DNA of 43,363 bases, taken from positions 159,384-202,746 of the forward strand of contig JACOUP010000003.1 in assembly GCA_016177765.1 (NCBI GenBank), written 5' to 3'. A model generated the notes under the pieces. The model ran no database searches, was not told where the DNA came from, and saw only the letters and a program-made list of their open reading frames with translations. Both the position numbers and the translations under genes were made by a program. Positions 30,378 to 36,073 of this stretch are shown here, piece by piece. Source of the DNA: Deltaproteobacteria bacterium (GTDB taxonomy: Bacteria > UBA10199 > JACPAL01 > JACOUP01). Each line of letters opens with the position of its first letter. Positions within the stretch are counted from its first letter, which is position 1.

Positions 30378-34176
<3,799 letters not shown>

Positions 34177-34224: not shown

Positions 34225-34241
34225 TTGGCATGCGGTTTGCT
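34225..34241 (+). promoter_or_regulatory. Sigma-54 (RpoN) promoter
   Basis: TTGGCATGCGGTTTGCT has GG (-24) and GC (-12) separated by exactly 10 bases and fits the RpoN consensus (TTGGCAcGnnnnTTGCT) at nearly all fixed positions. Transcription would begin near 34252, about 14 bases before the ATG at 34266. The upstream 40 bases are AT-rich, suitable for bending. No sigma-54 activator gene lies in the window. Confidence 0.7.
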
Positions 34242-34265
34242 GTACCTTTCTAGTAGGAGGTCGTG

Positions 34266-34541
34266 ATGCAGGCACTCTTGAACATCGAACCGGGTCCTGA
34301 AAGGCGGGATCACCCGGGCTATTCACGATGGACGGAGGGGCAGAAAAGGGAAGTCATCGAAACAGTCCTCTTCTGGCTGGAATTTCCCCAGGAAGAGGAG
34401 GTTTCCATTGAGTTCCTGCGCAATCATGCGATCCGGATCCAATACGATCGTCTGCCGGAACTCGCCTGGACCGAGATCACCTACGAACGTTTCGGCACTA
34501 TGCTCCAGAAGTGCGGCGTCCGCCGGGTCTGGTTTGGGTAA
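34266..34541 (+). CDS. Small orphan protein under sigma-54 promoter
   Basis: 91-residue protein that I do not recognise. It begins MQALLNIEPGPERRDHPGYSRW and ends GTMLQKCGVRRVWFG; it is soluble, mixed helical with an acidic patch (FPQEEEVSIEF), with one Cys and no signal peptide. The ATG at 34266 is chosen over the in-frame GTG at 34263 because GGAGG (34256-34260) is then 5 bases away. It is the first gene after the sigma-54 promoter and is separated from the cysteine-rich secreted protein by 28 bases, so both probably belong to one sigma-54 transcript. Confidence 0.7.
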   Translation: MQALLNIEPGPERRDHPGYSRWTEGQKREVIETVLFWLEFPQEEEVSIEFLRNHAIRIQYDRLPELAWTEITYERFGTMLQKCGVRRVWFG

Positions 34542-34569
34542 CAACCTCTGTAAACGATGAGGAGGGATT

Positions 34570-35649
34570 ATGAAACGACTCATACTCTTTGTTGCGGTTT
34601 TTCTTATTGGTCTCTTTCAAGTAAATCAAATTGCCTTTGCCACAGGAGGGTTCCCGACCAGGGGATCCAATAAATCTCTTATCAAGGGCAAAATGCTGCC
34701 TGCTCTTGAGATCACAAAACCGGCCCTGAAAGTTGGGCTGTGGAAGCATGGTGGCGAACAGTGCCAGAAGGATAAAGAATGCTTTTCAAAAATCTGTGAT
34801 GCCGAAAGCCACACCTGTCTTCCAGATCTGGGAGATGCCTGCGATGATTCGCGCGGTCGCCAGTTCCAATGTGCCACGGGAACCTGCTGGAACAAGGTTT
34901 GTCTTCCGGAAGATATCTTTACCAGAAGTTGTCGTTCAGACCGTAACTGCCGTGTTGAAGACAGGGGACCGCTTCATAGTTGGTTCTCCTATGAGAATGC
35001 GTTTGCCTGCATTGACGGAAGATGCAAACTTTTGAATGGAGCCGCAGCTTGCCAGGAGGATAACCAATGTGTTTCAGGTCGTTGTGGTTCTGTCCCATCG
35101 TCAAATCCCTATAGTGTACGATTTAAACAGTGTCTTGGAGATCTTGGGGAGAGCTGCATCGAGAGTGCTTGGAGGTACGAAGACGGTTCAGTTCAGGCCT
35201 ATTGCGCCGTTCAAGGCGACTATAGAGCATTATGTATTAATGGAAGATGCTCTTGGGCTCAATCTGCAGAATCCAATGAAGACTGCACCAGGGAGAACGT
35301 TAGTTGTGATTATGGTCTTATCTGCGAAAGAAATAGAATTGGTCAAATGAGGTGCAATTACATTAAACCGGGAGACCCCTGTGACTCCGACTTATATTGT
35401 GGGGGAGACCCAAGATCAGAGTTTCCGATGAGCTGTCTGAGTGGGCACTGTGTCGTTACCCAGAATAGCCCCGGGAGGAACTGTAACGATGACTATCATA
35501 TTTGTGGTTCTACCCTCATTTGTGACAGTGGCCAATGTCGTTCTCATCAGGTCGGGGATCGCTGTGAGTCCAGTGAAGAATGCAACAGATATCATGAATA
35601 TTATAATCTGACTTGTGATCCAGAAACCCAACGTTGTCGCAACAGGTAA
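34570..35649 (+). CDS. Cysteine-rich secreted protein
   Basis: 359-residue exported protein. The signal peptide is MKRLILFVAVFLIGLFQVNQIAFA with probable cleavage after AFA (about residue 24). The mature part has dozens of Cys in repeated modules of the form C-x-x-D-x-x-C-x-x-x-x-C (for example CQKDKECFSKICD, CQEDNQCVSGRCG, CESSEECN), recalling Dickkopf-type or other disulfide-rich extracellular modules of myxobacterial surface proteins. It has a good ribosome binding site (GAGGAGGG) before the ATG. The 3' half is more AT-rich than its neighbours, which hints at recent acquisition or relaxed composition. The function is unknown; a surface or spore-coat-like structural role, or a binding role, is speculation. 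Confidence 0.82.
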   Translation: MKRLILFVAVFLIGLFQVNQIAFATGGFPTRGSNKSLIKGKMLPALEITKPALKVGLWKHGGEQCQKDKECFSKICDAESHTCLPDLGDACDDSRGRQFQCATGTCWNKVCLPEDIFTRSCRSDRNCRVEDRGPLHSWFSYENAFACIDGRCKLLNGAAACQEDNQCVSGRCGSVPSSNPYSVRFKQCLGDLGESCIESAWRYEDGSVQAYCAVQGDYRALCINGRCSWAQSAESNEDCTRENVSCDYGLICERNRIGQMRCNYIKPGDPCDSDLYCGGDPRSEFPMSCLSGHCVVTQNSPGRNCNDDYHICGSTLICDSGQCRSHQVGDRCESSEECNRYHEYYNLTCDPETQRCRNR

Positions 35650-35668: not shown

Positions 35669-35697
35669 TTGACAGTCTCCAGCGAGTTCGCTAGATT
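35669..35697 (+). promoter_or_regulatory. Promoter of the retropepsin-like gene, leaderless
   Basis: TTGACA (35669-35674), 17 bases, TAGATT (35692-35697), then 7 bases to the ATG at 35705. The spacing puts the transcription start on the start codon, and no Shine-Dalgarno sequence is present. Confidence 0.55.
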
Positions 35698-35704
35698 CAC
35701 GGAC

Positions 35705-36073
35705 ATGGGGCTCACTCATATCAAGGCGCGGTTGTTTTCGAATCCTCCTTCAAGAAAGACGAAGAATATTCAATTTCTGGTTGATAGCGGTGCTGTTTAT
35801 TCTGTCCTCCCTGAAAAGGTCTGGAGGTCCTTGGGCCTGAAACCAATGAGGGAGGTGGAATTTACACTGGCCGATGGAACGGTCATATCCCGGTCCATCT
35901 CGGAATGTTCTTTTAAGGTCCAAGGAAAGAAAGGGACATCTCCTGTCGTTTTGGGGGCTAGTGAGGATGCCGCACTTCTTGGCATGGTGACTCTTGAAGT
36001 CCTGGGATTGATGATTAACCCTCTCTCCAGAGAACTCCTTCCGATGAAACTTGTCTTGGCCAGAGTCAAATAA
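35705..36073 (+). CDS. Clan AA aspartic protease (retropepsin-like)
   Basis: 122-residue single-domain aspartic protease-like protein. The catalytic motif is FLVDSGAVYSVLP (family form D-T/S-G-A), followed by the flap-like FTLADGTVISRSISE and the terminal VVLGASEDAALLGMVTLEVLGL, a typical retropepsin hydrophobic motif. Like retroviral enzymes it would act as a homodimer. The ATG at 35705 gives the usual MG start of this bacterial family and fits the promoter; a TTG at 35666 is rejected. No target is known. It stands alone after the sigma-54 genes with its own promoter. Confidence 0.82.
   Translation: MGLTHIKARLFSNPPSRKTKNIQFLVDSGAVYSVLPEKVWRSLGLKPMREVEFTLADGTVISRSISECSFKVQGKKGTSPVVLGASEDAALLGMVTLEVLGLMINPLSRELLPMKLVLARVK

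Follow-up and report, generated by a model that had tools for sequence, protein, structure and literature searches.

The window analysed here, a stretch of 43,363 nucleotides (G000:C3:159384-202746), belongs to G000, an assembly of 1.92 Mb on 19 contigs that is rated 96.5% complete. The locus under study begins behind the gene of a GcvT-domain protein (33259-34176), the first in the local gene order. This gene is followed on the plus strand by a sigma-54-type -24/-12 element, TTGGCATGCGGTTTGCT, at 34225-34241, and by an AGGAGG ribosome-binding site at 34255-34260, which serves an open reading frame for a cytosolic orphan protein of 91 amino acids (ATG at 34266, stop codon ending at 34541; starting at the in-frame GTG at 34263 would lengthen it to 92 amino acids). 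After a gap of only 28 nt, which contains a ribosome site, comes the gene of an exported cysteine-rich protein of 359 amino acids (34570-35649, plus strand). The next gene (35705-36073, plus strand) encodes a clan AA (retropepsin-like) aspartic protease, with matches to PF13975 (E 4.5e-9) and PF13650 (E 4.8e-8) that both exceed the cut-off. The genes beyond it we take to be an acyl-CoA dehydrogenase and then a methylmalonyl-CoA-mutase-like protein. Possibly, the transcript of the orphan and the cysteine-rich protein ends with the protease gene; a sigma-70-like match (10 of 12) at 35669-35697, which occurs at chance rate, could serve this gene instead. This stand-alone protease adjoins the 3' side of the cysteine-rich gene, and is missing at the corresponding locus of the sister genome G001, which represents another genus of the same family.

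The -24/-12 element is a full match to TTGGCAY-N5-TTGCW, 41 nt 5' of the ATG of the orphan. Its GG occupies 34227-34228 and its GC 34239-34240, with the flanks and spacing of the consensus present, and transcription would be expected to start near 34252. This agrees with the initial annotation, which had placed an RpoN site before the orphan and the cysteine-rich gene. The element is the only exact match to YTGGCA-N6-TTGC on either strand of the window. Within the window taken by itself, the site is no more than suggestive and may be due to chance: shuffled windows contained on average 0.14 matches to this looser pattern, and 12 out of 100 shuffles contained at least one. If the match were accidental, the genes would have to be driven by an unseen sigma-70 promoter, and a weak sigma-70-like match (9 of 12, at chance rate) does lie at 34088-34115. 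We consider such an accident barely credible, because the site is kept in a sister genus and the motif is present in excess genome-wide.

Conservation in the sister genus is apparent from the comparison with G001. Among 46 genomes of the class, including G000, a homologue of the orphan was found only in G001, and within the relatives set the orphan is present in 2 of 40 genomes (G000 and G001). A wider search turned up the sister copy alone; the named record that matches it is JAUSKE010000051.1 (Deltaproteobacteria bacterium isolate E14_metabat.bin.352). The two orphans are 68% identical, with a pN of 0.21 and a pS of 0.66, values that would fit a real gene under purifying selection. In G001, the site reads TTGGCATAAGGCTTGCT and is located 40 nt 5' of the same ATG, a near-equal distance that speaks against a chance match. 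The two sites agree at 14 of 17 bases, and since the three changes all fall in the unspecified spacer, 12 out of 12 specified bases are kept. In the intergenic alignment of G000 and G001, the site, the ribosome-binding site (kept as GTAGGAGG) and the ATG stand out from a poorly conserved remainder. The initial annotation had tied its reading to persistence of the site in sister genomes, and the site does persist in G001, the one relative with the orphan on which this comparison rests.

The genome-wide counts point in the same direction. The scan for further RpoN sites that had been proposed for this genome yielded 15 exact matches to TTGGCAY-N5-TTGCW in G000, compared to 0 matches to the reversed control. 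Over the 46 genomes of the class there were 968 matches versus 22 for the reversed pattern, with at least one match in each of the 46 genomes. An excess and an orientation bias of this size, in the genome and throughout the class, are difficult to reconcile with accidental matches.

The genes behind these sites were surveyed in seven genomes that were not a random sample but picked by kinship, quality and listed coordinates. They contained 104 distinct sites (15 in G000, 11 in G001, 18 in G003, 18 in G006, 12 in G021, 16 in G026 and 14 in G036). Three of these sites lay too near a contig end, leaving 101; in the reverse direction four more had too little DNA, leaving 97. An exported target was defined as an open reading frame of at least 60 amino acids on the strand of the motif, starting 22-140 nt downstream and with an N-terminal signal according to a simple hydrophobicity rule. 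Such a reading frame was found behind 52 of 101 sites, versus 2 of 97 in the reversed direction and 108 of 2020 positions drawn at random from these loci. This rule is home-made, and at least one of the reading frames it counted (G006 L126, with a TTG start) looks to be in the wrong frame. An earlier, stricter rule, which demanded a match to a ribosome site, overlooked several clear signal peptides. The contrast it gave was weaker (36 of 77 versus 31 of 149 background reading frames, or 36 of 104 when sites without a called gene are included). In G000, 8 of the 15 sites have exported targets (L029+, L032, L033, L034, L037, L039, L042 and L043). The window promoter itself was scored as 'other' in this tally, since the cytosolic orphan comes first behind it and the exported protein only second. 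The initial annotation had linked sigma-54 in this kind of bacterium to surface genes, and the strong enrichment of the sites before genes of exported proteins bears this out for the envelope. No sign of a link to predation or to development was found.

Neither of the RpoN domains was found in G000, and the DNA-binding domain was missing in G001 too. Absence of rpoN from the genome, which the initial annotation had named as evidence against its reading, is formally what the G000 assembly presents. One explanation might be a true loss of rpoN from this family, in which case another factor would read the site, or the site would be no more than a relic. In its favour, neither genome of the family has rpoN, whereas it is present in all 38 of the other relatives, and a search for the relatives' pyrG-rpoN block in 24 stretches taken from contig ends and from small contigs of G000 found no trace; its single match came from an open reading frame beside the block in one relative. 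In the five relatives examined for its surroundings, rpoN is part of a block together with what we presume to be hprK-like and phosphotransferase genes, and adjoins a presumed pyrG in four of them but not in G003. Both hprK and pyrG are missing from G000 as well, although pyrG is close to indispensable and was present in each of 14 control genomes. This fits a missing stretch of the assembly. Furthermore, the G001 assembly is only 82% complete, the sites are kept between genera and exceed what a relic would leave, and G000 encodes eight activators with an intact GAFTGA or GSFTGA. The GAFTGA-type loop is the part of these activators that contacts sigma-54. Four of the eight have a full receiver domain, one has a partial receiver below the cut-off and three have an FHA domain. 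Since pyrG and hprK are absent together with rpoN while all eight activators keep the loop, the simplest reading is that rpoN fell into an assembly gap; a true loss seems improbable to us. A more general caution follows for metagenome assemblies, in which 'rpoN absent' can be an assembly gap.

Which activator would act at the window promoter may differ from the situation at other sites. A palindrome close to GTTCGAAAATCGAAC, mostly paired with copies 19-20 nt apart, was found ~40-195 nt upstream of other sigma-54-type sites, in G000 at L029 (1580/1599), L032 (1310/1330), L038 (1436/1456), L040 (1697), L054 (3489/3508) and L066 (5430/5449), and in G001 at L105 (1407/1427). The copies at L054 and L066 were found from the palindrome alone, and proved to lie upstream of CTGGCA(T/C)GCGGATTGTA. 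The paired palindrome appears to serve one activator as its binding site. The window contained no copy of it at up to 3 mismatches, and no activator-binding site was found at the window promoter, where another activator may act from another site.

Some of the sites precede IS200-like (Y1_Tnp) transposase genes, namely at L038:1530-2162 and L066:5539-6141 in G000, L178:2031-2609 in G036 and L105:1731-2390 in G001. Palindromes lie upstream of the transposase genes at L038, L066 and L105. Three of these four transposases exceed the Pfam cut-off for Y1_Tnp; the one at L105 scores just below it, and its gene starts 230 nt from the site. A literature search for REP-associated tyrosine transposases in connection with sigma 54 found no paper.

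Other sites of the class precede small proteins that recur between genomes, which we named after their motifs. The 'SCGG' family follows -24/-12 sites in five of the seven genomes (G000, G001, G021, G026 and G036), the 'SINANYG' and 'W-RIG-FVN' families each do so in three of the seven, and a family of 81-84 amino acids in G000 and G001. The loci of these recurring families are L041, L099, L162, L156 and L184; L170, L155 and L183; L040, L157 and L175; and L036 and L107. They occur in several genera of the class, and most of their members have ~63-90 amino acids, compared to ~173-185 for SINANYG. Representatives of the four families, one each, matched nothing in Pfam up to E 1 (for SINANYG, one partial sequence was used) and gave only chance-level matches to NCBIfam, far below the cut-off. 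Three other small sigma-54-type targets or target families, common to G000 and G001 or more widespread, keep their sites, as the orphan does. Long soluble proteins rich in proline or coiled coil, without a signal peptide, were also seen behind the sites (L031 and L141, which are BLAST relatives, and the similar L096, L124, L168 and L139).

Like these small families, the orphan had no match over a cut-off in profile searches of Pfam and NCBIfam, and a comparison with PDB sequences gave weak matches at most (best E 0.058). The best AlphaFold2 model, built from a two-row alignment, reached a pLDDT of 76, compared to 46-60 for the other four, and is predicted to have the order strand-helix-strand-strand-helix-strand. 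This is the same secondary-structure order as in the ferredoxin-like fold of small regulatory and ligand-binding domains. Foldseek listed ferredoxin-like folds without significance, however (best E 6e-3, none at E ≤ 0.001), and no sequence relationship with them was found. In the cytosol, the orphan might serve as a small regulator of the envelope output, or as an accessory to it.

The cysteine-rich protein combines a hydrophobic N-terminus with 36 cysteines, which the initial annotation had aptly described as dozens of cysteines in repeated modules. All of them can be assigned to nine four-cysteine modules, which span residues 65 to 356; the gaps measure 5-15, 4-19 and 4-15 residues within a module and 7-11 residues between modules. 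No Pfam or NCBIfam family exceeded its cut-off, no NCBIfam family appeared up to E 1, and the PDB sequences gave no match. A model made without an alignment was too poor to use (pLDDT 41). The sole family listed up to E 10 was DUF7107 (PF23416), at E 1.8, with a score of 9.4 bits where the cut-off is 24.6. EB and Dickkopf-like repeats are small disulfide-rich repeat modules. Like DUF7107, they consist of short repeated four-cysteine modules in an exported protein, as is the case here, but the cysteine spacing of the window protein is too variable for a known signature. A literature search for Dickkopf-type cysteine-rich proteins in Deltaproteobacteria found no paper. The possibility of cysteine-rich paralogues, raised in the initial annotation, was not borne out, as none was found elsewhere in G000 at E ≤ 0.1. 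Other targets of -24/-12 sites with cysteine motifs, at L104 in G003 and at L133 and L137 in G006, form a separate BLAST cluster that does not include the window protein.

The base composition of the cysteine-rich gene differs from that of its surroundings. The initial annotation had pointed to an AT-rich 3' half with a history of its own. The low GC content of this half is real (0.459, in the lowest 0.5% of all 540-bp windows, compared to 0.529 for the window as a whole), but it is largely common to the whole gene, as the 5' half has a GC content of 0.485 and falls in the lowest 6%. Similarly, the GC3 of the two halves (0.44 for the 5' half, 0.41 for the 3' half) lies below the 0.53-0.69 of the four other genes measured.

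The two genes behind the promoter also differ in their conservation. Where G000 has the cysteine-rich gene, G001 has an unrelated gene with a lipoprotein-like signal. Of the pair that the initial annotation had regarded as a unit, the promoter and the orphan are conserved, whereas the exported gene behind them is not; a two-gene unit is not conserved. In G001, a long hairpin-like inverted repeat lies 3' of the orphan stop codon, before the lipoprotein-like gene (L023, G001:C151). Possibly, the promoter drives the orphan only, and the neighbouring cysteine-rich gene was acquired independently and is expressed on its own. This explanation is in agreement with the different exported gene in the sister's slot and with the low GC and GC3 of the cysteine-rich gene compared to those of the orphan (0.56 and 0.69). 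Yet, in G000 the gap between the two genes is only 28 nt long and includes a ribosome site, and no terminator-like element was found on the plus strand between or behind them. We therefore regard separate expression as rather unlikely, though clearly less so than the loss of rpoN, and favour a joint transcript.

Our preferred reading, to which we assign a probability of about 0.8, is that 34225-34241 is a sigma-54 promoter of a transcript with the orphan and the cysteine-rich gene, and one member of an envelope regulon. RpoN-polymerase would sit at the -24/-12 element as a closed complex until an AAA+ enhancer-binding activator opens it. This activator would probably have a receiver or an FHA domain, and would respond to a signal from the envelope or from a kinase. 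The transcript would carry first the orphan and then, with its own ribosome site, the cysteine-rich gene, such that both proteins are made together. The cysteine-rich protein would be exported by Sec, and its nine modules, each closed by disulfides, would form a chain located in the periplasm or at the cell surface. The regulon to which the promoter would belong might couple two kinds of output, with roughly half of the examined class sites preceding exported proteins or lipoproteins, and several others preceding recurring small cytosolic proteins.

A role of sigma-54 in the control of the bacterial exterior is already known (Francke et al., 2011, PMC3162934). There, -24/-12 promoters are tied to envelope functions that include lipoproteins, and receiver-type activators are involved, as in our results. 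The theme of that work is mainly the transport and biosynthesis of exterior building blocks, whereas the targets found here are themselves, in most cases, unnamed proteins, either exported or small and cytosolic. In Borrelia, sigma-54 acts upstream of surface lipoproteins in the Rrp2-RpoN-RpoS pathway (PMC3037356). It is reported to do so via RpoS, which differs from our results, where -24/-12 sites immediately precede the exported genes. What is added by our results is a case from an uncultured class with unnamed proteins.

At the level of the class, we see about even odds that these sites make up a sigma-54 regulon with a fast-changing exported output, held together by conserved promoters and by small cytosolic families (the orphan, SCGG, SINANYG and W-RIG-FVN) that may adjust the envelope response or go along with it. 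Within this regulon, one sub-group would have the paired-palindrome activator site and the IS200-like (Y1) transposase genes. With 968 exact sites in 46 genomes, or ~20 per genome, this offers a testable regulon for an uncultured class, with sites from which one can predict which of the unnamed exported and small proteins act in concert. Conservation of the promoter and the orphan next to a swapped downstream gene suggests that the regulation outlives the exported protein that it regulates.
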